Source: Bacteroidales bacterium
Lineage (GTDB): Bacteria > Bacteroidota > Bacteroidia > Bacteroidales > UBA932
Direction: 5' to 3'
Length of the DNA: 64,000 nucleotides
NCBI GenBank assembly: GCA_017437125.1
Contig: JAFSBV010000012.1
Span: forward strand, 1 to 64,000
This document shows positions 24,953 through 62,706 of the stretch, piece after piece; positions within the stretch are counted from its first letter, which is position 1; the number at the start of each line of letters is the position of its first letter. The notes under the pieces are model-generated. The model did no database searches and was not told the DNA's origin. It saw nothing but the letters and a program-made list of their open reading frames with translations. The position numbers and the translations under genes are program-made.

Positions 24953-25059
24953 GTTTAGTATTGATGATTGATGTTATGGCATAAAGACGTAAAATAATCA
25001 GAAAAGTACCATCCAATCTCCATGCCGTAGCAGAAAGCTGCCATATATAAATGAAAAAA

Positions 25060-25156
25060 GGGAAAGCTTGATACATCGCACCGCTACGACCTCCTACCCT
25101 TGCTGCGGTCAAGCCCTGGGGGAATTCAGAGGGAGCTGGTCGTGTATGACTTTCCC
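25060..25156 (-). ncRNA. ffs: signal recognition particle RNA (small bacterial type)
   Basis: On the minus strand the segment shows the SRP RNA apical hairpin: CCCCCAGGGC...GCAGCAAGGGTAGG, with the conserved GCAGCAAGGG tetraloop/5e-loop region. The ends GGGAAAG and CTTTCCC pair to close the long helix, and a run of six T follows (25054-25059 on the minus strand), giving termination. A -7 box lies just upstream at 25162-25169. Length about 97 bases fits the Alu-less 4.5S-like RNA that binds Ffh. No protein-coding frame in the segment. Confidence 0.9.
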
Positions 25157-25161
25157 GAATG

Positions 25162-25169
25162 CAAAGGTA
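25162..25169 (-). promoter_or_regulatory. -7 promoter box of SRP RNA
   Basis: TACCTTTG on the minus strand, ending 6 bases before the first base of the predicted RNA. Confidence 0.7.
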
Positions 25170-28734: not shown

Positions 28735-28807
28735 GCCACTTTAGCTTAGTCGGTAGAGCATCGCATTCGTAACGCGAAGGTCGTGGGTTCGAATCCCATA
28801 GGTGGCT
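28735..28807 (+). tRNA. tRNA-Thr(CGU)
   Basis: 73-base cloverleaf: acceptor GCCACTT/AGGTGGC, D-arm with AGTCGGTAGAGC, anticodon loop TTCGTAA (anticodon CGT in DNA), T-arm GTGGG TTCGAAT CCCAT. The anticodon stem TCGCA/CGCGA has an A-C mismatch at the loop-closing pair 31-39. The 3' CCA is not encoded. The gene is single, with its own promoter and a terminator. Confidence 0.93.
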
Positions 28808-28812
28808 CAAAA

Positions 28813-37917: not shown

Positions 37918-37959
37918 AAATCAGACCGACCCGATATTTTGGGCCGGTCTGATTTCTTT
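37918..37959 (+). terminator. argS rho-independent terminator
   Basis: Stem AAATCAGACCG (37918-37928) with CGGTCTGATTT (37945-37955), inner CCC/GGG pairs, followed by CTTTT. Confidence 0.85.
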
Positions 37960-37976
37960 TATATGCATCTTTCCAG

Positions 37977-38089
37977 ACACCTTGGCCGTTTGGAGGCATA
38001 AAAAAGACCAAGGTGTGTGTGAAAACGTATTAAATATAGCCTTTTAAATACACCTTAGACGCTTTTTAAGTGTTTTCTGTCCAAGGTGT
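37977..38089. repeat. twin 40-bp palindromic element, locus A
   Basis: Two 40-bp units with inverted ends: unit 1 37977-38016 (starts ACACCTTGG, ends CCAAGGTGT) and unit 2 38050-38089 (starts ACACCTTAG, ends CCAAGGTGT), separated by a 33-bp spacer. Only the 7-12 outer bases of each unit are conserved. The same 40-33-40 layout recurs at 48136-48248. The element fills the gap between argS and the convergent DUF2812 gene. I do not recognise the family. Confidence 0.75.
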
Positions 38090-38132
38090 TGTCAAATAAG
38101 TTCTTTTAAATAAGTGCTCCGTTCGTGAAATA

Positions 38133-38702
38133 TTAGAATAGTTGACTGATCAATTCATTTGTTTTCTTGCGAAGTTTTCTCAAGACAGGAAGCAGGAGAA
38201 ATATTTGTGCCAGCAGTATTCCGTATGTAAGGCCTTCACCGAAGTGCACAAGCCAATCAGAGAAAAAGCATTCGGGAAGATGTCGCCCGATAGGAATCAA
38301 CACAAGAAAGGCCAATGCAGCGATGATGGTGAGTCCGATGAAGCTTTCTTGATGAAAATTGAAGGCCTTGTTGGTCAGACGAAGTTTTGCAACAACATTC
38401 TCTTCTGCCTCGAAAGGTCCTGAGGATGTTTCTCTCTTCCAATATATCTTGTTTTTCCACTGATGCACGAACTGATCGCCACAAGAACAGCGAAATACAA
38501 CGTAATCGCCGACAATTTCCTTTGATTTCTTCTCATCAAAGTCAATCTGGTATATGTATTCTCCAGGTTCGCATTGCTTGAACCGATAAAACACTCCGTT
38601 AGTATGCCAGAATGCCCAACCTTTCTTGCACATTGCATTCAGCCACTGCTCCTCCTTGTCGAAATCGAGGAACCAGTTGACCATAATTTTGCTTGTTCCC
38701 AT
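38133..38702 (-). CDS. DUF2812-type membrane protein
   Basis: A 189-residue protein. The N-terminal 115 residues start MGTSKIMVNWFLDFDKEEQW and contain GWAFWHTNGVFYRFKQCEPGEYIYQIDFDE, the pattern of DUF2812; two transmembrane helices follow (around 120-138 and 150-172). DUF2812 proteins are typically paired with PadR regulators, as here (5 bases downstream of padR). The function of the family is not known; it may be a membrane-bound response or sensing partner of the PadR protein. Confidence 0.82.
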   Translation of the reverse strand: MGTSKIMVNWFLDFDKEEQWLNAMCKKGWAFWHTNGVFYRFKQCEPGEYIYQIDFDEKKSKEIVGDYVVFRCSCGDQFVHQWKNKIYWKRETSSGPFEAEENVVAKLRLTNKAFNFHQESFIGLTIIAALAFLVLIPIGRHLPECFFSDWLVHFGEGLTYGILLAQIFLLLPVLRKLRKKTNELISQLF

Positions 38703-38707
38703 ATTCT

Positions 38708-39028
38708 TTATTTTTTGATATTGTTTCTGCCATTTTCTACAAGTTCCTCAAGACGTTCGAGTTCTGCGATGAGAACAGCCTGGCCTTTATCCGTAATTTG
38801 ATACAGTTTTCTTCTGCCATCAGTCTCTGATGATTCTCCACGTGGTGAAATCCATTCTTTAGCAAGCAGATTTGAGATTGCTCCATACAAGGTGCCGGCT
38901 GAAAGTATGAGCCTGCCATTGCTCATCGCAGATGTTTTCTGCATTATACCGTACCCGTGTATAGGTTCCTGCATCGCAAGAAGGATGTAGTAAATAGATT
39001 CTGTTAAAGCAGTGTTTGTGTCTTTCAT
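38708..39028 (-). CDS. PadR-family transcriptional repressor
   Basis: A 106-residue winged-helix protein with the PadR pattern ALTESIYYILLAMQEPIHGYGIMQK...AGTLYGAISNLLAKEWI...GRRKLYQITDKG. Start set at 39028 (MKDTNTALTES); the frame is open to 39076, but that extension would include the promoter. A perfect odd palindrome at 39045-39059 overlaps the expected transcription start, so autorepression together with the DUF2812 gene is likely. The inducer is unknown. Confidence 0.92.
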   Translation of the reverse strand: MKDTNTALTESIYYILLAMQEPIHGYGIMQKTSAMSNGRLILSAGTLYGAISNLLAKEWISPRGESSETDGRRKLYQITDKGQAVLIAELERLEELVENGRNNIKK

Positions 39029-39044
39029 ATATTGATTACCGTTA

Positions 39045-39059
39045 TATCGGATTCCGATA
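39045..39059. promoter_or_regulatory. PadR operator
   Basis: TATCGGATTCCGATA, a perfect 7+1+7 palindrome adjoining the -7 box on the start-site side. Position supports repression by the adjacent PadR protein; binding is inferred. Confidence 0.65.
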
Positions 39060-39067
39060 CAAAGGTA
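39060..39067 (-). promoter_or_regulatory. -7 promoter box of padR-DUF2812
   Basis: TACCTTTG on the minus strand, 32 bases upstream of ATG 39028. Confidence 0.6.
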
Positions 39068-39176
39068 GGAAAACATTTTGTAATTGCAAGATGGGATGAT
39101 TAATATTTCCAGTCATAATCCGGCAGCTGCTGCTTTTTTTATAGACATGATATATGACTTATACGATAGTTTTCAC

Positions 39177-39184
39177 TATATTTG
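39177..39184 (+). promoter_or_regulatory. -7 promoter box of the tryptophanase-like gene
   Basis: TATATTTG on the plus strand, 36 bases before ATG 39221. No TnaC-like leader peptide is visible in the short leader. Confidence 0.55.
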
Positions 39185-39220
39185 TGATATCTGTTGAAAT
39201 AAAATATAAATCAGTTCATT

Positions 39221-40669
39221 ATGTCTAAGGTCAAGTTTTATAAGGAGGAGCAGATTCCTCTTGAGATGCACAAGGTGCGTGTGGTTCAGAAACTTACTCT
39301 TCTTCCTGTGGAAGAGCGACTTAAGAAGATCCAGGAGGCAGGCAACAATACCTTCCTTCTTCAGAATAAGGACGTATATATGGATATGCTCACCGATTCT
39401 GGTGTCAATGCCATGTCTGACCAGCAGGTGGCTTCCATGGGTATAGCAGACGATTCATATGCGGGTTCCGAGACGTTCAACAGGGTCAAGGCTGCGATTT
39501 TTGAGGTGTTCGGAACCGAGAATGTGCTTCCTGCCCATCAGGGACGTGCTGCCGAGAATATTCTTGCCGAGGCATATGTGAGACCTGGAATGGTGGCCTT
39601 GATGAATTTCCATTTCACGACTACCAAGGCTCATATCACCAGGCTTGGCGGAGAGGTTGTGGAGCTTATTCAGAAGAAGGGTCTCGTTCCTCAGTCCGAT
39701 GAGCCTTTCAAGGGAGATATGGATCTTGACGCATTGAAGGCTACAATCGAGAAATACGGACCTGAAAATGTGGCTTTCGTACGTGTGGAGGCAGGAACGA
39801 ACCTTATCGGAGGTCAGCCTGTATCTCTTGAGAACATGCTTGCCGTGGCTGACATATGTCATGACTACGGAGTGAAGAGCGTGCTTGATGCTTCACTTCT
39901 TCAGGATAACGTTTATTTCATGAAGACCCGCGAGGCTCAGTGCAAGTTCATGACCACCAAGCAGATATACCATCTTCTTGCAGACAAGATGGACATCATC
40001 TATTTCTCGGGAAGAAAGCTCGGATTCTCACGCGGAGGTATCATAACATCCCATAATCCGAAATATACGAATGAGATGATGGAATATATCCCTCTTTATG
40101 AAGGATTCCTTACATACGGAGGAATGGAAGTGCGTGCAATGGAGGCGATGGCAGTCGGACTTGTAGAATCTCTGGATATGGAATATATAAGCCAGGGACC
40201 TGAGTTCATCAATTATCTCGTTAATGAACTGGACAAGTACGGAGTACCTATGATCAAGCCTGCAGGCGGTCTCGGAGCACATATCAACTGTTCGGAATTC
40301 GTACCTCATATACCTCATGACCAGTATCCTGCAGCAGCGGTTGCGACAGCAATCTATATTGCTTCCGGAGTCAGAGGAATGGAAAGAGGAACGCTCAGCG
40401 AGCAGCGTGAGGCTGACGGTACGGAGCGTTTTGCTGAACTGGAACTTATGCGACTTGCGATGCCACGACGTGTATTCACGCTCTCACAGGTGAAATATTG
40501 TGCGGACCGTATAAAGTGGCTTTATGACAACAGGGAGCTGATCGGAGGTCTGAAGTGGGTTGAGGAACCTAAGGTGCTGCGATTCTTCTTCGGAAGGCTC
40601 GGTGAGATCGGCTACTGGCAGGAAGAACTTGCAAAGAAGTTCAGAGAGGACTTCGGCGAATCGTTATAA
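39221..40669 (+). CDS. tnaA: tryptophanase-family beta-eliminating lyase
   Basis: A 482-residue fold-type I PLP enzyme. Recognisable blocks: LPAHQGRAAENILAEAYV (as PTHQGRGAE in tryptophanase and tyrosine phenol-lyase), NFHFTTTKAHI, VRVEAGTNLIGGQP, the PLP-Asp in VLDASL, PLP-lysine in FSGRKLGFSRGG, and EGFLTYGGMEVRAMEAMAVGL near the C-terminus. Most likely it splits tryptophan to indole, pyruvate and ammonia; tyrosine phenol-lyase cannot be excluded from sequence reading alone. Monocistronic with own promoter and a strong terminator. No tryptophan permease gene nearby. Confidence 0.88.
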   Translation: MSKVKFYKEEQIPLEMHKVRVVQKLTLLPVEERLKKIQEAGNNTFLLQNKDVYMDMLTDSGVNAMSDQQVASMGIADDSYAGSETFNRVKAAIFEVFGTENVLPAHQGRAAENILAEAYVRPGMVALMNFHFTTTKAHITRLGGEVVELIQKKGLVPQSDEPFKGDMDLDALKATIEKYGPENVAFVRVEAGTNLIGGQPVSLENMLAVADICHDYGVKSVLDASLLQDNVYFMKTREAQCKFMTTKQIYHLLADKMDIIYFSGRKLGFSRGGIITSHNPKYTNEMMEYIPLYEGFLTYGGMEVRAMEAMAVGLVESLDMEYISQGPEFINYLVNELDKYGVPMIKPAGGLGAHINCSEFVPHIPHDQYPAAAVATAIYIASGVRGMERGTLSEQREADGTERFAELELMRLAMPRRVFTLSQVKYCADRIKWLYDNRELIGGLKWVEEPKVLRFFFGRLGEIGYWQEELAKKFREDFGESL

Positions 40670-40672
40670 TCG

Positions 40673-40702
40673 AAAAACCAAGGCTTCAAAGCCTTGGTTT
40701 TT
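40673..40702. terminator. bidirectional terminator
   Basis: AAAAACCAAGGCTT and its complement around a 2-3 base loop, with A-run before and T-run after; ends both the lyase gene and the convergent lipoprotein gene (stop at 40706). Confidence 0.85.
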
Positions 40703-40705
40703 CAT

Positions 40706-41353
40706 TTAATTATGCTGGTATGTCAGGCTCATGTGGCCGTCCTGCCATGAGGTCGTCGCCCAATCATACAATGATGTGTCGGCTTCGAAATATATCCTGC
40801 TGCCTTCAAAACGGATGGAAACGTTCTTGAGAGCACCTCCGCTGCCGCTCATCTGACGGTCATTGACACCATGCAGGATCACAGCTCCGGAATGATCTAC
40901 CTGATAATGGAACTGGTATGGCATGATCTCGATGTTGCAGCGGTCTGCTTTCTGGATCTGTACTGTTGACTTGTCCTTGCCGACTTCCGGATAAGGTACA
41001 TAAAGATTGATCTGGGTGTGCTCTTCAGGTATCTTCGGGGTAAGGACTTCCGAACGGTAAAGAATGCTTGTATAATCCGCTTCGTCAGGATTCTTGCTTG
41101 AGAGGATGCCGGTCCAGCCGTACAGCTGCAACTGGAAAAGAATGTCGTCTGTTACGAGACCTTCTCCTGACAGATCTATCGGGGAACTCCAGTCTGCCGA
41201 TACGAGAGAATAGTCTCCTGTGATTGTCTCGATAGTCGAGTAGGATGCCGCTGTCCAGAAGTCATTGTGCTCCTTTTCGCAGCTCCACAGGCAGATCAGA
41301 ACCGAGATTGCCAGCACTGATCTCATCAGATTGTTTTGCCATTTTTTTACCAT
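40706..41353 (-). CDS. lipoprotein of unknown function
   Basis: A 215-residue protein starting MVKKWQNNLMRSVLAISVLICLWSC, a lipoprotein signal with Cys25. The mature part is beta-rich (SIRFEGSRIYFEADTS...) and looks like a small outer-membrane-tethered beta-sandwich; no catalytic motif. Start at 41353 rather than 41410 because the upstream residues precede the signal peptide. Last gene of the same-strand block that starts at 46506, after a 66-base gap, so it could also have its own promoter. Confidence 0.7.
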   Translation of the reverse strand: MVKKWQNNLMRSVLAISVLICLWSCEKEHNDFWTAASYSTIETITGDYSLVSADWSSPIDLSGEGLVTDDILFQLQLYGWTGILSSKNPDEADYTSILYRSEVLTPKIPEEHTQINLYVPYPEVGKDKSTVQIQKADRCNIEIMPYQFHYQVDHSGAVILHGVNDRQMSGSGGALKNVSIRFEGSRIYFEADTSLYDWATTSWQDGHMSLTYQHN

Positions 41354-41419
41354 GATATGTGTCGATTTGCAAGTTTGCTGCAAAATAAGAATTATTGACG
41401 TGAAATCCAATCATTTATG

Positions 41420-42100
41420 TCAGATCCTCTTTCCTTTGATGCTTAATCCGATGTTCATGCCCCATTTGGCCAGAGGCCTTTCAGGATTGTCTCGATTGTA
41501 GCTGTCTTTGAAATATGCCGGGAAGAAAATTCTGTCCTGCTTGTATTTGGTGAAATGTTCTTTCTTATCCCATGAGTCTGAATCTGCCCATCTGTCTTTG
41601 ATTTCCTGTCCGATTTCAGTCAGGCTGAAGCTGATGTAGTACTTCCCTGGGTCGAGAACTATGCTTTCTTCCGGCGCGATGCTGAATGTGGTTTTGCCTG
41701 CGGCTTTCGGTATGTCCTGATATATCGGCAGTGTTACTATGTTTACCGGATTGTCTTCGTCGTGCAGCCTGTAAATCCTGATGCTTGCCCTGCACCCTTC
41801 CATCCTGTTTTCTTCAACTGTGAAGCTGATTGTCCTGACAAGGAAAGGATGTCTTGTATTGACTATGCTTCCGATTTCCTCTCCGACGTTCTCCGGGGTC
41901 ATGAATATGTATCCTCCGGGAAGCCTCATGCCCTTTCCGTCCAACGTCTTTTCCTTAGAATCCGATTCTGTCAATATGGCTGCGTCCAGCTCTTCGAAGC
42001 TGTCTTTGCCATCAAGCAGATAGCCTCCTATGATATGAGGCTCCTGAGCCTTTGCAACAAGGGATAAGAGGCTCAGAAATAATAGTATGGTCCGTTTCAT
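41420..42100 (-). CDS. secreted protein of unknown function
   Basis: A 226-residue protein with signal peptide MKRTILLFLSLLSLVAKAQ, almost identical to that of the S41 peptidase two genes upstream. The mature part has a jelly-roll-like stretch (VRTISFTVEENRMEGCRASIRIYRL...DPGKYYISFSLTEI) similar in pattern to the beta domain found in Bacteroidota carboxypeptidase-regulatory-domain proteins. No enzyme motif. 11 bases separate it from the gene at 42112. Confidence 0.7.
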   Translation of the reverse strand: MKRTILLFLSLLSLVAKAQEPHIIGGYLLDGKDSFEELDAAILTESDSKEKTLDGKGMRLPGGYIFMTPENVGEEIGSIVNTRHPFLVRTISFTVEENRMEGCRASIRIYRLHDEDNPVNIVTLPIYQDIPKAAGKTTFSIAPEESIVLDPGKYYISFSLTEIGQEIKDRWADSDSWDKKEHFTKYKQDRIFFPAYFKDSYNRDNPERPLAKWGMNIGLSIKGKRI

Positions 42101-42111
42101 ATATTGTGGTT

Positions 42112-42765
42112 TTAATAATAGTCCTGAGGATCGTATTGCATTTTTGGAAGATCGTCCCTATGATTGTCAGGGGGCCTTCCCGGAAGGATTATATCATATA
42201 CGCCTCCCATTTGAGGAACAGTGATCTGATCCCATCTTGACGGCCTCTGACTTACACCTCTTCCGAAAAACATCCTCAGAGTAGTCATAAGCCAGGTTCT
42301 CATCTTCAGCGGCTTAACGTATTTCATGAGTTCCTCCATGTCTGCCTTTGAATTGGCTATAGCTGTTCTTCTGCTGGCCTGGTTTCTCTCCTGAGGACTT
42401 ATATAATCCTCAGGCTCATATAAGATGTCGGGTAGCATCCTCTCGCCGATATATTCAGACTCTTCAAGCTGTTTCAAGGAATTCTTGACCATCTCTTCGT
42501 ACTGATGGTCCAGTTCGTCGCGGATCTGCTCCAATGCCTTTATCTTCAGTTCTGTGCTTTCAGGAAGGGAATCCCTGATGAAGCCGATGATTCCTTTTCT
42601 CTCATCCTCGCTTATCACCATATCGCGTACAGCCCTTTCTCCAAGCTTGTCAATGTCAGTGATCAGAATCTGTTCGCGGCTTTGTTCCTGGGAATATAGA
42701 TTGACAGGCGACATGATGAGCATCATGCAGCCTGCCAACCATAGTATATTGATGTTGGGGGACAT
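42112..42765 (-). CDS. secreted helical protein of unknown function
   Basis: A 217-residue protein with signal peptide (MSPNINILWLAGCMMLIMSPVNLYSQ) and a largely helical, charged mature part (RDELDHQYEEMVKNSLKQLEE) ending in a Pro/Asp-rich tail. Not recognised. It sits 17 bases after the S41 peptidase gene and 11 before the 41420 gene, so the three are co-transcribed; a substrate, inhibitor or partner of the peptidase is a guess. Confidence 0.65.
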   Translation of the reverse strand: MSPNINILWLAGCMMLIMSPVNLYSQEQSREQILITDIDKLGERAVRDMVISEDERKGIIGFIRDSLPESTELKIKALEQIRDELDHQYEEMVKNSLKQLEESEYIGERMLPDILYEPEDYISPQERNQASRRTAIANSKADMEELMKYVKPLKMRTWLMTTLRMFFGRGVSQRPSRWDQITVPQMGGVYDIILPGRPPDNHRDDLPKMQYDPQDYY

Positions 42766-42782
42766 CAGATAGGTTCGTGTAT

Positions 42783-44600
42783 TTATTTGTTAAGTATTGA
42801 GTTCGTGGTCTGGCCGATCATATTCAAAGCCCATGCCATAACCGCATCTTTTTCATTTATATGATCTTCTGCTGATATTTCTACCCATATGTCAGGCTGG
42901 ACTCCGATTCCGTGATGCTGGCTGCCGTCAATATATGATGCGTGAAGGCCTGTCGTCATTACGTTGAAAGCCGGAAACATGAACTGTGTTACATCACCGT
43001 TCGTACCGCATGTCGGAGTGCCTATGATTTTGCCCAGATCATATCCCTTTACAAGCATCAATACAGTCTCAGCCCAGCTCATCGCTCTGTAGTCTGTCAG
43101 AAAATAGCATGGAATATCGATATAAGGAGCTTTCGGTATGATTGCGCTTTCGTCTTCCGAGTATCCGGCATTCTTCTGATCAGGAAGAGCAGTCTTTAAG
43201 ACCTTGAAAAATGCATATGACAATTCCTTGTCTGTCAAATGCGGAAGAATGCGTTCAAAATGATAAGTCGGGTATCCTCGGATGTCGAATATGATTGCCT
43301 CTGGTGCGGTGTCGGCATACATCTTCATGAAAGAATCGTAGAATCCGTCATCAAAAGCCTCACGTTCGCAAAGGTTTACAATCATGCATCTGTCTTTAAC
43401 TTCAAAAACCGGTTTTGCCGTCCTCGTACTCATCGGTCTGTAATAAGAGGGCTTGGATGACACGGTCTTTTCAACTCCTTCCGGAGTGATGTATCCGACT
43501 GTCATCACTGAATCTCTGTCGAAGGCAGATATGGCCTCATATAACGACATAAGCCGTTCAGCTGCCTTGTTGGTCTGACTGATTACCTTGGATTTTTCCT
43601 TGATCAGCTCTTCAATGTCAATGCCTGAGATTGTTTTAAGTCTGCTGCCTTTCTCAATGCCCATTTCGCTTCCGTCGATGATTATACAGTCCTCAATGCA
43701 GGTCAGGGCAATGGGAAGATAGCATTTGGTCAGATATCTTTCCGGTAATCCGGGGAATGACAATGCACCGTCAATATCAAGATGCGCATCCTTGACAGGG
43801 GAATATACTTCTCTGAGCATATCCCAATATGCAAATACGGTATTTCTGTCTTTCTTGTCAAATTCTTCAGAGACCGCTTTCCCGATCATGACCGGCAACT
43901 GGCTTTCCCAGTCAAGTCCGTCTTCACGATGGTAAGGATAGAAGTGCTGTATCATGTTCCAGCGTATCATAAGATCGGTTACCCTGTAGGTTCGGTCGTT
44001 GAATATGCTTATGACTTCAGTCATATACTCTCCTTCCTCATCATAAAGGGCATCCCATAATTCTTCTGCTTCCTTCAACGCCTTTTCTGTATCATCCTTT
44101 GAGAAGCTGCCGGTCTTTGCAGCAGACTGCATGTTCAGATACAGATTGTCAGACAGTCTGTAGCTATACCATCTTCCGGCCTCCGGAGCATATTCCGGCA
44201 TGTCTGCAGAACATTTTATGATTTCTTTGTAATATGGCGAATAGTCCTGGACGCTGATTGATCCGCCTCCGGTATGAAGCCGATATTGATATGAGGATAA
44301 ATCGTCGGGACTGACTCGGGAATTCCTGTTTCCAGGCTTGGATGTGATGAATGCATCCGGGGCAAAGACTGCCGTCATCTCTTTGATTACATCCTCTGCG
44401 GTGTTTTCTCCGATCTTGTCCGCATAGTAGTAACCAATCTTGAACCAGTCGATGTCATCCCACTTCTCGGTATGATGATTCGGTGAATAATATCTCATGA
44501 TACCGTACGCCTTGGCGAATGATATATAGTCTGCTGTCGCATCCTGAGCCTCGGCAGACAGGGAGATGAGGCTCAGGAAAAATAATATTGTCCGTTTCAT
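42783..44600 (-). CDS. secreted S41-family (tricorn/CTP-type) peptidase
   Basis: A 605-residue protein with signal peptide MKRTILFFLSLISLSAEAQ. The C-terminal S41 core contains IIFDIRGYPTYHF (conserved DxRG), the catalytic block CYFLTDYRAMSWAETVLMLVK (nucleophile Ser before WAE) and a C-terminal GTPTCGTNGDVTQFMFP. The N-terminal part carries the S41 N-domain (FAKAYGIMRYYSPNH...) known in Bacteroidota peptidases. Periplasmic or surface protease, substrate unknown. It lies 18 bases after the XRE gene, which ties it to the DUF2975 operon. Signal-peptide DNA is duplicated in 41420-42100. Confidence 0.87.
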   Translation of the reverse strand: MKRTILFFLSLISLSAEAQDATADYISFAKAYGIMRYYSPNHHTEKWDDIDWFKIGYYYADKIGENTAEDVIKEMTAVFAPDAFITSKPGNRNSRVSPDDLSSYQYRLHTGGGSISVQDYSPYYKEIIKCSADMPEYAPEAGRWYSYRLSDNLYLNMQSAAKTGSFSKDDTEKALKEAEELWDALYDEEGEYMTEVISIFNDRTYRVTDLMIRWNMIQHFYPYHREDGLDWESQLPVMIGKAVSEEFDKKDRNTVFAYWDMLREVYSPVKDAHLDIDGALSFPGLPERYLTKCYLPIALTCIEDCIIIDGSEMGIEKGSRLKTISGIDIEELIKEKSKVISQTNKAAERLMSLYEAISAFDRDSVMTVGYITPEGVEKTVSSKPSYYRPMSTRTAKPVFEVKDRCMIVNLCEREAFDDGFYDSFMKMYADTAPEAIIFDIRGYPTYHFERILPHLTDKELSYAFFKVLKTALPDQKNAGYSEDESAIIPKAPYIDIPCYFLTDYRAMSWAETVLMLVKGYDLGKIIGTPTCGTNGDVTQFMFPAFNVMTTGLHASYIDGSQHHGIGVQPDIWVEISAEDHINEKDAVMAWALNMIGQTTNSILNK

Positions 44601-44618
44601 ATGATATATTGATTGTGT

Positions 44619-44846
44619 CTATTGTTCGTCGTTTTCTTCTTCTCCAGGCTGATATTCCAGAATATCTCCCGGCTGGCAATCCAAAGCCTTGCAGAGGGCG
44701 GAAAGGGTAGAGAAGCGGACGGCCTTAGCCTTGCCTGTCTTGAGGATGGACAGGTTGGCCTGAGTGATTCCGACCTTCTCCGCCAGCTCTCCTGAGGACA
44801 TCTTCCTCTTTGCCAGCATTACGTCAACGTTTACTATTATTGGCAT
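44619..44846 (-). CDS. XRE-family HTH regulator (YozG-like)
   Basis: A 75-residue Cro/CI-type regulator: MPIIVNVDVMLAKRKMSSGELAEKVGITQANLSILKTGKAKAVRFSTLSALCKALDCQPGDILEYQPGEE is essentially one helix-turn-helix domain (described here by its ends MPIIVNVD and GDILEYQPGE). YozG-like proteins are coupled to DUF2975 (YoaS) membrane proteins, as in this operon. The two palindromes at 46522 and 46555 are the likely binding sites. 12 bases after the DUF2975 gene at 44859. Confidence 0.92.
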   Translation of the reverse strand: MPIIVNVDVMLAKRKMSSGELAEKVGITQANLSILKTGKAKAVRFSTLSALCKALDCQPGDILEYQPGEEENDEQ

Positions 44847-44858
44847 ATTTCCTCCTTC

Positions 44859-45539
44859 TTAGATAGTCATTTCGTTTTCTTCCTTATATGCTCGTGCCAT
44901 CTTGAAAAGCTCGGCTACTATGATCATGCCGATTCCGAAGCAGAGGAAGTAACAGTTCGGGCCGTCTATCACGATGTCATAATGTTCCAAAGAAATATGG
45001 TTCTTTGTCCAGAAATATCCGAATATTTCAAGGATCCATTGTGATGCATAGGCTATTATGAGACATATACCCATTCTGGTGAATCTGCACTCAAGTCCTT
45101 CAGAGAATAATTCCTTTTTGTTTACTGAGATAATGCAGAATATCAGCATGAACCAAAAATATCCCATACAGATCAGATAAGCTATCGCTGTGAGTGGACC
45201 TAGGATATTATAGATTCTTTGCTCTTTATCGGTCTTCGGCTCAGTCCTGATGATTACCTCTTCCAGAACCATCTGATCATATTTCCCTGTCTTATGGTTG
45301 TAGATGCTGTCCGTCTGAACGTGGTAGTCCTTTGCAACGATGTCAGCATAGTACCACTCTTGAATATTCTTGTTAGAAATCATACGGCCGTTACTGTCAG
45401 TGTCGAATTCTCTGGCAGATTCGCGTCCCTGATTGAAGGAAACAGAAAAGGCCTTTCTGGCAGTACTGTAATCTATAACCCATCCGAAGACAATTGCGAT
45501 TCCTAGGATGACACATAATATGTTGAATTTTGTTTTCAT
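44859..45539 (-). CDS. DUF2975 membrane protein, copy 3
   Basis: A 226-residue protein with an N-terminal TM helix (FNILCVILGIAIVFGWV), a periplasmic loop of about 95 residues (longest of the three copies, with RKAFSVSFNQGRESAREFD), then three TM helices (about 115-135, 150-172, 185-207). It ends YKEENEMTI, the family's C-terminal E-x-L/M-T-I signature. DUF2975 proteins are paired with XRE regulators; their biochemical role is not known. 12 bases after copy 2. Confidence 0.85.
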   Translation of the reverse strand: MKTKFNILCVILGIAIVFGWVIDYSTARKAFSVSFNQGRESAREFDTDSNGRMISNKNIQEWYYADIVAKDYHVQTDSIYNHKTGKYDQMVLEEVIIRTEPKTDKEQRIYNILGPLTAIAYLICMGYFWFMLIFCIISVNKKELFSEGLECRFTRMGICLIIAYASQWILEIFGYFWTKNHISLEHYDIVIDGPNCYFLCFGIGMIIVAELFKMARAYKEENEMTI

Positions 45540-45551
45540 GATAACTTGGTT

Positions 45552-46028
45552 TTAGATTGTTAAGTCGTTTTCCTTCTTGATATCTATCGCCATTGTATAA
45601 AGATAACCGAATATCGTAAACACAAGGGCAGGTACTGCCATGTCTGGAAGCGGGAAGGTCTTCTCCATAGCTCCATTGACAGCAAAGTCAAAGTTTTCTC
45701 TGAAATTCACCATGAACATATACACGAATCCTGACAAGAAAATCAGTTTGGCATTACCGGTTGTGAACAGCGCCTGTTTCTTTAATCCGGATAATACCTT
45801 GTAGATCAGTGTCGATATGACTGTGGCAAATGCCACTGAAGTAAGAACATATCCTGCGATAATATAAATCTGCCATGTCATGCGCTCGGGGTTCCACTTC
45901 ATATATCCTCCATTGATTACGGTAGCATTGAGTCCATCTATAATCGATCCAAGGCCAATCCAGAAGCAGCATACTATGATCACCACGATTCCGGTGGCTT
46001 TCATCCATTTAATTTTAGTTGTTTTCAT
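45552..46028 (-). CDS. DUF2975 membrane protein, copy 2
   Basis: A 158-residue four-TM protein (MKTTKIKWMKATGIVVIIVCCFWIGLG as TM1), ending KKENDLTI, the DUF2975 terminal signature. Start set at 46028; the frame extends upstream into copy 1 without similarity. Second gene of the operon, 10 bases after the first. Confidence 0.83.
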   Translation of the reverse strand: MKTTKIKWMKATGIVVIIVCCFWIGLGSIIDGLNATVINGGYMKWNPERMTWQIYIIAGYVLTSVAFATVISTLIYKVLSGLKKQALFTTGNAKLIFLSGFVYMFMVNFRENFDFAVNGAMEKTFPLPDMAVPALVFTIFGYLYTMAIDIKKENDLTI

Positions 46029-46038
46029 TGTCTTGAAA

Positions 46039-46506
46039 TTAGATTGTGAGACTGTTTTCTTCGCTGACCTGCACGGCATTTCTGTAAATGATTGCCACGA
46101 TGCAAATGATTATCGGGACGAAGAGTTCATCAAAGCCAAAGCTTATATGTCTGGTTCCTGCCATCAGGTGCATGTTTTCCATACAGAACAATGTGATGAA
46201 TGTAGTGACGGCCAGGCCGAACAATATCCCGACATTCTTCCGTGGGAACAATACTCCGTTATTCTGTGCTTTGATGGAGTTGAATAGAAAAGCCAGGAGA
46301 AGAGCGAAACTGCTGATTGCTCCGACGAGCCTCAGGATTATTAACGAAATCTGCATGCCCTTGAATCCTTCAATCCATACGGCTTTCTGCGGTGTGCCGG
46401 AGAAGAATCCGAATGATTGGACGGTGATGAGTGCCAGTGCCATTAGGCCGATAACAATGACTGCTCCTGTCAGCCATTTCAGGGATTTTGTTGAGTTCTG
46501 TTTCAT
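46039..46506 (-). CDS. DUF2975 membrane protein, copy 1
   Basis: A 155-residue four-TM protein ending SEENSLTI, the DUF2975 terminal signature. First gene of the operon; its start lies 16 bases from operator 1 and the -7 box at 46539. Three divergent copies of this family in a row suggest a hetero-oligomer or different partners for each. Confidence 0.85.
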   Translation of the reverse strand: MKQNSTKSLKWLTGAVIVIGLMALALITVQSFGFFSGTPQKAVWIEGFKGMQISLIILRLVGAISSFALLLAFLFNSIKAQNNGVLFPRKNVGILFGLAVTTFITLFCMENMHLMAGTRHISFGFDELFVPIIICIVAIIYRNAVQVSEENSLTI

Positions 46507-46521
46507 AAATCAGTAAGTTTT

Positions 46522-46536
46522 TATCGTTTTTCGATA
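46522..46536. promoter_or_regulatory. XRE operator 1 of DUF2975 operon
   Basis: Palindrome TATCG-TTTTT-CGATA covering the expected transcription start of the operon. Confidence 0.75.
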
Positions 46537-46538
46537 TG

Positions 46539-46546
46539 CAAATATA
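46539..46546 (-). promoter_or_regulatory. -7 promoter box of the DUF2975 operon
   Basis: TATATTTG on the minus strand between the two operators. Confidence 0.65.
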
Positions 46547-46554
46547 GGTACTTT

Positions 46555-46569
46555 TATCGAAAAACGATA
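46555..46569. promoter_or_regulatory. XRE operator 2 of DUF2975 operon
   Basis: Palindrome TATCG-AAAAA-CGATA, the same arms as operator 1 with complementary spacer; centres are 33 bp apart and this one overlaps the -33 region. Likely bound by the XRE protein of the operon. Confidence 0.75.
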
Positions 46570-46595
46570 ATTTTATAAAGAAATTTGATAAAAAT

Positions 46596-46649
46596 TTATT
46601 GTAATAGCTTATTGAACCTGTCGCGGATAGAAGTGGCGAGGGCGTTATG
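46596..46649 (-). pseudogene. remnant of a DUF2723 gene 3' end
   Basis: On the minus strand the segment reads ALATSIRDRFNKLLQ and stop, against ALASSIRDRFNKML and stop at the end of the intact DUF2723 gene. 23 bases are identical (46609-46631 and 48265-48287). An in-frame stop at 46650-46652 and lack of further similarity mark the break. It lies in the gap between the DUF2975 promoter and the GH43 gene. Confidence 0.75.
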
Positions 46650-46703
46650 TCATTGTTTGTTTCGTGAAAAGTAGTTATATTCACAGACCTAATGATATCA
46701 AAC

Positions 46704-48161
46704 ATGAAAAAGCTCCTTCTGAACCTCTTTTTTATTGCTGTCGTCACACCTATGGCTGCCCAGACATTGATATTGCCGGGAGATTATGCCGATCCTACCA
46801 TCCTTAAGGACGGTGATGATTATTACATGACTCATTCTCCGTTTTATTATCAGCCTGGCTTTCTGATATGGCATTCCCGTAATCTGTTCAACTGGGAACC
46901 GATATGCAGGGCAGGAGAGGAATGGAGTGGCTCTGCATGGGCCCCGGATCTTCAGAAAGTGGGAGACACATATTACATATATTTCCCGGCCGACGATACG
47001 AATTGGGTAATGACGGCCAAGGATATCAGAGGCCCATGGACAAAGCCTGCTGATACAGGAATAAGCGGAATCGATCCGGGCCTTGCGGTGACACCGGATG
47101 GGAAACGATATCTTTTTACCAGTGCCGGATATGTTACCCCATTGACAGATGACGGCATGAAACGAAATGGCGAGACAAAGAAGATTTATGACGGCTGGGT
47201 ATATCCTCATGAGTGGGAAACCGAATGCATGTGTCTGGAATCTCCTAAGATCACATATCGTGACGGCTACTATTACATGACTTCTGCAGAAGGAGGCACG
47301 GCAGGTCCTGCAACAAGCCATATGGCCGTCTGTGCAAGGGCGAAGGATATATACGGGCCTTGGGAAAATTCTCCATATAATCCTATAGTACATACCTATT
47401 CCGATGTAGAGCAATGGTGGTCTAAGGGCCATGGCTCGTTGGTAGAAGGTCCTGACGGGCAGTGGTGGATAGTATATCATGCATATGAGAATGGCGCTTA
47501 TTTTTTAGGAAGGCAGACTGTCATGGAACCTGTGGAATGGACGGAAGGCGGCTGGTATCGTCCGGTCAAAGACCTGGAGATAAAGACCATACATGAGCGG
47601 AACGCATCTTTGTCTGACAGTTTTGAAAGCGATAATGTCAGCTGGCAGTGGACCGGCTGGAAAGAGGATGTCACAAAATCGGTCTTCATGAGGAAAGGCC
47701 GGCTGGTTATGCCGGCACGTGGAACAGTTCCTCATGACGGACGTCTGATGCTGATTACGGCGACAGACAGTGAATACTCTGTTGAAACTGAGGTTACAAT
47801 CAAAGACAAAGATCTCAAAGCAGGACTTGTCCTGTTTTATAATGAGCATGCTTATGCCGGACTTCTCTGTGACAGCAAGACCCTTACAGTTTATAAGAAT
47901 CCGGAAATGACGGAAGAAATCACAAATGATATAGGCAGAAATATCTTCATCCGTCTGGATTTCAGAAAAGGTCTGCTAGACATCAGTGTTAGCGCTGATG
48001 GGAGCGGATGGAATCTTCTGTGCAGGGATATAGATGTCTCGGAATTCCACCACAACAGATATGGAGGATTCCTTGCCTTGCGTCCTGCTTTATGCTCAGT
48101 CGGAGACGGAGAAGCGGAATTCCATCATTTCACATACACCTCGGCCGCTTTTTGTCGATAA
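46704..48161 (+). CDS. secreted GH43-family glycoside hydrolase
   Basis: A 485-residue protein with signal peptide MKKLLLNLFFIAVVTPMAAQ. The five-bladed propeller carries the GH43 acids: base Asp in PGDYADPTILKDGDDYYM, modulating Asp in SGIDPGLAV, and acid Glu in CMCLESPKITYRDGYYYM; SGSAWAPDLQ is also typical. After residue 300 a beta-sandwich domain follows (SDSFESDNVSWQWTGW...). Probably acts on arabinan, xylan or galactan side chains in the periplasm or at the surface. Not part of a SusCD locus. ATG 46704 chosen for the signal peptide; ATG 46692 adds four residues. The last nine codons and the stop lie within the 113-bp repeat at 48136. Confidence 0.9.
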   Translation: MKKLLLNLFFIAVVTPMAAQTLILPGDYADPTILKDGDDYYMTHSPFYYQPGFLIWHSRNLFNWEPICRAGEEWSGSAWAPDLQKVGDTYYIYFPADDTNWVMTAKDIRGPWTKPADTGISGIDPGLAVTPDGKRYLFTSAGYVTPLTDDGMKRNGETKKIYDGWVYPHEWETECMCLESPKITYRDGYYYMTSAEGGTAGPATSHMAVCARAKDIYGPWENSPYNPIVHTYSDVEQWWSKGHGSLVEGPDGQWWIVYHAYENGAYFLGRQTVMEPVEWTEGGWYRPVKDLEIKTIHERNASLSDSFESDNVSWQWTGWKEDVTKSVFMRKGRLVMPARGTVPHDGRLMLITATDSEYSVETEVTIKDKDLKAGLVLFYNEHAYAGLLCDSKTLTVYKNPEMTEEITNDIGRNIFIRLDFRKGLLDISVSADGSGWNLLCRDIDVSEFHHNRYGGFLALRPALCSVGDGEAEFHHFTYTSAAFCR

Positions 48162-48248
48162 TATATCCAAGGTGTTACTCAAATCATTGTTTTGATGATA
48201 TTTCTACTACACCTTGGACGTTTTTAGTTGTCCAAGCGGCTAAGGTGT
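48136..48248. repeat. twin 40-bp palindromic element, locus B
   Basis: Unit 1 48136-48175 (ACACCTCGG...CCAAGGTGT), 33-bp spacer, unit 2 48209-48248 (ACACCTTGG...CTAAGGTGT). Same 40-33-40 geometry as locus A at 37977. Unit 1 supplies the last codons and stop of the GH43 gene; unit 2 ends 6 bases before the stop of the DUF2723 gene. Confidence 0.75.
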
Positions 48249-62135: not shown

Positions 62136-62301
62136 ATGAAAAGAATCGTAATACTTCTGCTGACCATACTGTCTGCCATCGGATGCAGCAGTCCCAATGA
62201 CAGTAAGCTGCGAGATTGCCCGCACCGGCAAAGTGTTCTGTGATGATCCCGAATTTCCGGATGTCGAGACAGAATCACCTGAAGAAGATGCTCTATCATG
62301 A
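62136..62301 (+). pseudogene. frameshifted small lipoprotein
   Basis: MKRIVILLLTILSAIGCSSPNDS, a lipoprotein signal with Cys17, starts at 62136 but the frame ends at 62243 after 35 residues. In the +1 frame from 62197 the sequence continues as ...EIARTGKVFCDDPEFPDVETE... to a stop at 62301. A one-base change would join them into a lipoprotein of about 60 residues. It starts 8 bases after the DUF2007-type gene. Confidence 0.6.
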
Positions 62302-62706
62302 CATGAACTCCTACACTCTCCCTTTTCTATAACGTCCATCACTAATTCGCTTGAAAACCTGCCGGACGGCCACGAAAAAGGCGAATAACCCTTATAAACA
62401 GAGGCCGTCCATCATAAAATCAGTTGTTTTTCTGCCGGAAACTTGACCCCGCACACAATGAGTGACCTATTTCTGATGGGTCGCAAATTGCCATACTGAC
62501 TCACATGACGATACTCCTATGTAATCCTTATGAGTTTTTATCTTTGAGCAGTGAATAAACAGCTTGGTAAAAAAGTGCCACAGAATTGACCGGGCTGTAC
62601 AGAAAACCAATCAGATTGCCTTGATCTTGAGACAGCTTGGTCAAGATTAGACTATTAATTGACCGAGGTGTTCAAGCGAAGAATTGCGTTCCGGAAATCA
62701 TTGATT
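62302..62706. other. non-coding gap, possible decayed DNA
   Basis: No gene recognised. Contents: an inverted repeat GGACGGCC/GGCCGTCC (62364-62371, 62403-62410) with a 31-base loop, and two copies of ACAGCTTGGT about 70 bases apart near 62559 and 62632. A 31-codon open stretch around 62567-62659 has no recognisable similarity. It may be a decayed mobile or gene remnant, which cannot be decided from sequence reading. Confidence 0.4.

Follow-up and report, generated by a model that had tools for sequence, protein, structure and literature searches.

The closest described relatives of the elements reported here are REPINs, doublets of repetitive extragenic palindromes (REPs) linked to a REP-associated tyrosine transposase (RAYT, or TnpA_REP). 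The parts of the Pseudomonas fluorescens SBW25 report used here count 560 doublets, besides singlets, with 71 bp between 16-mers in the GI doublet and 110 bp in the GII doublet, and propose for Pseudomonas that a RAYT dimer recognises the doublet (PMC3116915). TnpA_REP is described as binding the folded palindrome on one strand and cutting beside it (PMC8266576). We analyzed a 64,000-nucleotide stretch of a Bacteroidales genome (contig JAFSBV010000012.1, positions 1 to 64,000; hereafter the window) that carries 113-bp twin palindromic elements. These are very probably REPIN-like: mobile doublets, themselves non-autonomous, of REP-like palindromes ~40 bp long that a divergent RAYT recognises.

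A preliminary description of the window had reported two such elements, at 37977-38089 and 48136-48248, with 40-bp units, a 33-bp spacer and a 73-bp period. Both lie there with the arms described, and these dimensions were measured in each; the count of two, however, missed a third copy at 62559-62671. Element 1 (units 37977-38016 and 38050-38089, spacer 38017-38049; profile score 70.0 bits), element 2 (units 48136-48175 and 48209-48248, spacer 48176-48208; 62.4 bits) and element 3 (units 62559-62598 and 62632-62671, spacer 62599-62631; 65.9 bits), none of which is assigned a strand, share the geometry 9-22-9-33-9-22-9, with 9-bp half-sites of alternating orientation at element positions 1-9, 32-40, 74-82 and 105-113. 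The arms are inverted, as described earlier, but the half-site consensus is ASASCTYGG rather than ACACCTTGG, and because positions 2 and 4 can differ between a unit's two arms, these do not always pair. Scanning the window de novo for elements with four half-sites (unit 40; periods 71, 72, 73, 82 and 83) returned elements 1, 2 and 3 and no others at a score of at least 34; the top score in single-base shuffles of 30 kb was 30 (5 trials, period 73 only). The exact arm pattern matches the window once, at element 1, and matches none of 100 dinucleotide shuffles of it.

The genome that contains the window (G000; 2.8 Mb in 99 contigs, assembly 91% complete) was searched with at most three mismatches and, in a second round, with a profile derived from nine copies. 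It holds 10 full copies: the three in the window, two on contig C43, and one each on C29, C47, C53, C70 and C74. All 10 have a period of 73, and an eleventh copy (C43:181702-181781) carries an internal deletion. Thus, the two outcomes that the preliminary description had set against its own proposal, no copies beyond the first two and a freely varying spacing, were not seen. Among nine copies, the inner two half-sites are as well conserved as the outer two. Also constant, counted over both strands, are an AAA at 46-48, together with its mirror, and the A-rich stretch 24-26. The unit centres, in contrast, are diverse: 32 of the 36 copy pairs share at most 67 of 113 bases, even in the better orientation.

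A profile search of 61 genomes of the genus, including our own, used stricter filters that may lose weak matches, and found copies in five of them (full-length: 10 in our own, 18 in G080, 9 in G024, 2 in G063 and 1 in G021) and none in the other 56. Two of the G080 copies, on C85 and C24, may represent a single site that was assembled twice. The period is 73 in 39 of the 40 full copies and 72 in the remaining one, from G080; the profile was built on period-73 copies and favours that value, though it tolerates gaps. In G021 and G063, ACACCTGTG or a close variant of it replaces ACACCTTGG at all four half-sites, and the geometry is unchanged. This concerted change of all four half-sites suggests that a single factor reads all of them.

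In G024, G080 and G063, a single gene of ~304 codons is bracketed by two elements, one on each side, and half-sites of the window type flank this gene in G024, in G080 and at a further locus, L139. The first three family members gave no Pfam or NCBIfam match. Their motifs are H-x-H, mostly THxH or NHxH, and, later, Y-x-x-R-N; residues H50, H52 and Y107 are invariant in all 28 collected relatives (alignment A4) and stand in register with H60, H62 and Y120 of canonical proteins. Weak matches to the NCBIfam REP-associated tyrosine transposase (NF047646) occur in 11 of the 28 (best E 2.3e-5), and direct matches to Pfam Y1_Tnp in two (best 0.044). Profile comparison of A4 with 13 proteins, picked from 16 examined among distant matches and all carrying Y1_Tnp, gave a probability of 99.3, aligned the histidines with the tyrosine likewise in register, and yielded an E of 1.4e-20 that is too favourable because the matches had been pre-selected with two peptide patterns. 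The 13 proteins in turn match the solved TnpA_REP structure 4er8 at 5e-7. A route through a distant homolog in our own genome, C43:188247, is free of this selection fault: the family profile finds it (E 2.7e-12), it passes the Pfam Y1_Tnp cut-off (29.1 bits vs. 23), and it matches NCBIfam REP_Tyr_transpos at 1.7e-11, under that family's cut-off. Together, this route and the A4 comparison identify the ~304-aa protein as a predicted divergent RAYT (TnpA_REP) of the HUH/Y1 type. A PDB search with the family itself returned nothing below 0.3, and the G024 RAYT (L138:1699-2610) had no match among plasmid and phage records.

The genome collection contains 67 RAYT loci. Close relatives account for 23 of them (L138-L160) and come from metagenome-assembled genomes labelled Bacteroidales, many of these from the gut of buffalo, goat, sheep and roe deer. 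We scanned 119 flanks of 60 RAYT loci with unit and period unconstrained (score threshold 42; the short locus L269 was dropped and the partial L160 not used), a procedure without the profile's bias toward 73. Four-half-site elements were found in 44/49 flanks of 25 close loci, 33/50 flanks of 25 more distant loci of the same genus and 13/20 flanks of 10 loci from three other genera of the family, or 90/119 in total; no flank reached the threshold after single-base (0/119) or dinucleotide (0/119) shuffling. Both sides were positive at 19/25, 10/25 and 4/10 loci, respectively (33/60 overall). The half-sites vary between RAYTs (ACACCTGTG, ACCGTCCGA, CGAGCTGAG, ACCGTCACG, ACCGTCAGT and others) yet agree within an element. 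As to spacing, 87 of the 90 elements have periods of 71-74 bp (71 in 9, 72 in 16, 73 in 48, 74 in 1) or 82-83 bp (82 in 7, 83 in 6), and the others have 96, 99 and 104. At L150, upstream of the RAYT (2464-2867), units of the ACCGTCACG type stand 73 bp apart in a short array.

A tree of 57 RAYT proteins, with period labels on 54, requires three changes between the two classes, compared with a mean of 7.7 for shuffled labels (0/500 as low); where the two sides of a gene differ the label was our choice, and this is a test of clustering only. The period classes cluster on the tree with few shifts, although the rows are related and hence give no rate. Half-sites and unit distance thus appear to co-diverge with the transposase. 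The step of ~10 bp between the classes is near one helical turn, from which we infer a meaning that is taken up below.

Our own assembly encodes RAYT-like genes on C7, C14, C44, C76, C63 (broken) and C43 (188247, the distant homolog). The own-genome profile search found no element of the window type on the first five of these contigs, and on C43 the copy nearest to the homolog is the deleted one, ~6.5 kb off. Other RAYTs of this genome have families of their own. The gene on C44 has two adjoining GCCACGAAGT elements of period 71, and dispersed twins with the same half-site and period occur at C43:182057, C47:74550 and C83:22392; a single unit of this type at C43:202142 has no partner within three mismatches. 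The gene at C7:3708-4628 is flanked by CGTCCGA elements, with relatives at C22, C72 and 62331-62443 of the window. The single hits of the CGTCCGA-type search are the weaker because the reversed control also gave two matches per strand. The window member of this sister family (strand unassigned) is a degenerate twin with CGTCC half-sites and a period of 73, scoring 31 with unit 40 and 40 with unit 36, and it lies ~115 bp from element 3. Near three contig ends (C48:98-137, C72:98-137 and C98:215-254) we also noted an identical 40-bp inverted repeat, AAACCTTGG...CTAAGGTTT, which is probably unrelated to the elements.

By protein identity, the closest four RAYTs are the query gene (L138) and those of L139, L140 and L141, and all four lie between guaA and a peptidase gene; such neighbours were not seen at the remaining 19 of the 23 close loci. 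At this locus in G080, the first element begins 3 bp past the peptidase stop. The corresponding interval of our own genome holds one lone element, which lies 4 bp past the stop of the peptidase gene and is 7 bp away from guaA; that of G026 and G007 holds neither element nor RAYT, and that of G063 holds an unrelated gene. On the simplest reading, the RAYT was lost from this locus and the lone element left behind; a gap in the assembly or the reverse order of events are possible alternatives. Because of this lone element and the lack of a cognate RAYT in the assembly, our own copies look orphaned. Four relatives have the complete unit at this locus, our genome has the element alone and two others have neither, which would make it a natural case of apparent RAYT loss. 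Inspection by eye did not decide whether the lone element is a hybrid of two flanking ones. In the guaA/peptidase gap of G026 (L255, G026:C19:2500-6500), ~60 bp of extra sequence, seen by eye in the loop of a terminator-like inverted repeat, is perhaps another small insertion.

Several copy pairs are identical at 75-95 of 113 bases, yet their 40-bp flanks agree at only 5-18 bases (2/11 for one cut flank). The C29 and C47 copies, for instance, match from 5 bases ahead of the element up to its end. Element midpoints fell within an open reading frame call in 0/10 copies of our genome, 3/14 of G080 and 0/6 of G024. Other copies were duplicated together with their flanks: element 3 and C70, C85 and C24 of G080, and C14 of G024. 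Element 3 and the C70 copy (C70:310-422) are identical at 105/113 positions, but we rejected this pair as proof of transposition: a gene stretch stands beside both, as in a duplicated neighbourhood, in that 62198-62300 (+ strand) of the window matches, at 87% identity, the 3′ end of the gene adjoining the C70 copy. The longer, window-side interval contains the sister-family twin at 62331-62443, and its borders could not be placed by eye. Elements repeated with their flanks were also seen in tandem at L054 (G024:C14, 6104-6216 and 6518-6630, period 414 bp) and L097 (G080:C85, 40-152 and 201-313, period 161 bp), a mode of growth other than dispersal.

Within the window, element 1 lies between argS (+) and a DUF2812 gene (−), and element 2 between a GH43 gene (+) and a TMEM260-like gene (−). 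The GH43 reading frame terminates inside element 2, which supplies its final seven codons and stop. No clean empty site could be had for this locus, since the best matches end at the TMEM260-like gene.

The copies, their geometry, the RAYT linkage, the co-variation and the shared guaA locus are read directly in the sequences; for catalysis, strand, dimer, movement and direction of loss, we infer the following course. By analogy with TnpA_REP, the RAYT would most likely bind the folded palindromes of one strand, probably acting as a dimer on the doublet's two units, and would cut and rejoin them, dispersing copies to new, mostly extragenic sites. It would read the ~9-bp half-sites and require a set distance between units. 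In our own genome the cognate RAYT was apparently lost from the guaA/peptidase locus; the single element between these genes would be what stayed behind, and the copies at other sites would be stranded. A protein dimer spanning two palindromes is consistent with the near-constant period and with four half-sites that change in concert. More tentatively, and with doubts that outweigh our confidence, the RAYT family may act on a helically phased complex in which both palindromes of a doublet face the same side of the DNA, at a separation of about seven or eight turns. If so, spacing would evolve by one-turn jumps, and REPIN recognition would involve a duplex or cruciform architecture beyond the single-strand hairpin.

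Several observations weigh against a REPIN/RAYT system. The units are nearly self-palindromic, and centre identity (0.34-0.47 direct vs. 0.33-0.46 inverted) does not tell whether they are inverted like those of classical REPINs. There is no conserved GTAG/GTGG foot: GT[AG]G occurs in 7/40 foot windows on either strand of our 10 copies, which by our arithmetic is about chance level, although some published REP types likewise lack this foot (PMC6006769). No RAYT adjoins half-sites of the window type in our own, 91% complete, assembly; 29 of the 119 RAYT flanks had no element in the free scan; and the two sides of one RAYT may differ in period (72 and 83 at L208, 104 and 83 at L117). In the protein, the central position of HxH often carries a non-hydrophobic residue, the motif Y-x-x-x-N seldom precedes a P and sometimes reads Y-x-x-x-Q instead, and the members scanned fall below the Pfam and NCBIfam cut-offs (for NF047646, 80 bits against printed scores of 16.1, 18.2 and 44.2). 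The canonical proteins of the profile comparison were found through the patterns MYFN[RH]KY and EEWE.., so that match is partly shared by selection. Finally, the most similar copy pair, element 3 and C70, is no hop.

Of the other explanations, the one that survives best, though we think it improbable, is that a regulator or chromosome organiser binds the elements as duplex DNA, four phased half-sites making up each site. The half-sites are 31, 42 and 31 bp apart, or ~3, 4 and 3 helical turns, the periods cluster at 71-74 and 82-83, and A/T runs stand at fixed places, as would suit such a protein. It would not account for element types that flank their own RAYT-like gene, on both sides in 33/60 loci, for sister types that coexist in one genome, or for similar copies with unlike flanks.

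We give still less credence to transcription terminators or 3′-end RNA stabilisers, that is, bidirectional hairpins selected in place between convergent genes. Seven of the nine classifiable copies in our genome do lie between convergent genes, compared with 45/231 intergenic pairs at the same loci, and six RNA folds gave z-scores of −2.2 to −8.0. However, the corresponding counts were 4/8 in G080 and 1/5 in G024, so that the three genomes pooled reach only 12/22 (simple open reading frame caller; 10/10, 14/18 and 6/9 copies tested, with edge and overlapping cases set aside). REPs, too, are reported near 3′ ends and between convergent genes (PMC3733652). A terminator needs no fixed 73-bp period, many half-site pairs are mismatched, the half-sites co-vary with the flanking transposase, and no copies were found in 56 of the 61 congeners.

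The preliminary description had left the choice between a REPIN or small mobile element and an RNA-structured repeat. The first option gained from the twins that flank a RAYT-like gene in relatives and from the dispersed copies in the same genomes. The RNA option came out weaker, since pairing within units did not clearly differ from pairing across them and half-site differences often break it. Among 40 RAYT-flanking elements, pairing was better within units in 9, better across in 2 and tied in 29, and among our 10 copies the numbers were 2, 4 and 4; with no clear difference, we rejected an RNA or single hairpin as the conserved feature. As DNA, element 1 folds into two hairpins and element 2 into one long hairpin. 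At Rfam gathering thresholds, the window contains only a Bacteroidales small signal recognition particle RNA (25056-25163, −) and a tRNA-Thr gene (28735-28808, +). A loose E-value near element 1 gave seven matches, all under curated scores (best 0.0035), which we took as chance. Just before element 1, at 37919-37965, a long inverted repeat with a T-rich end resembles an argS terminator; it was seen by eye alone and is absent from the output of the computed scan.

Miniature inverted-repeat elements of an ordinary double-strand (DDE-type) transposon are also short and non-coding, with inverted arms at both ends, but we find this origin scarcely credible, because no target-site duplication was seen by eye around the copies, the linked enzyme is of the HUH/Y1 type, and the internal two half-sites are conserved like the outer ones; no search aimed at DDE genes was made.

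A REPIN/RAYT system would thus be at hand in many natural variants of specificity, with every transposase gene next to the sites that go with it. Such RAYT/element pairs could help to show how REPs are read by a RAYT, and comparing the two spacing classes could directly test the importance of duplex phasing. For this phylum, the Bacteroidetes, the passages of the literature consulted mention only atypical structures. Among the open-licence papers listed, no title or abstract beginning describes this RAYT family, its 40/73 geometry or its two spacing classes, which is not proof of absence.

Compared with known systems, the elements resemble the SBW25 REPINs in their unit, a doublet of palindromic REPs at a set spacing, in the RAYT link and in extragenic dispersal; they differ, as far as that report was consulted, in having 1-18 full copies per genome, nearly all of them doublets, and no conserved GTAG (PMC3116915). 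The E. coli REPtron is likewise a RAYT gene flanked by REP doublets, but the E. coli REPs are described with a GTAG foot and a bulged stem, unlike those here (PMC8266576, PMC6006769). In TIRtrons (TIRYT), too, tyrosine transposase genes have repeats other than GTAG REPs on their flanks, some of these repeats self-complementary and paired, and the common TIR motif given there, GGGGWSAS, is not among the half-sites listed here (PMC3733652). Subclass 2.6 of the TnpA_REP/TnpA_Y1 proteins of Bacteroidetes shares genes flanked by atypical, non-GTAG structures with copies elsewhere in the genome. By the published description, with which alone we could compare, its members have a median length of 179 aa with NH[LIV]H and YIH[QN]NP, as opposed to ~304 aa, mostly THxH or NHxH, and YxxRN in our family (PMC6006769). 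Relative to classical REPINs, the present system stands apart in three ways: the GTAG foot is not conserved, the RAYT is cryptic, and the periods differ by about one helical turn.

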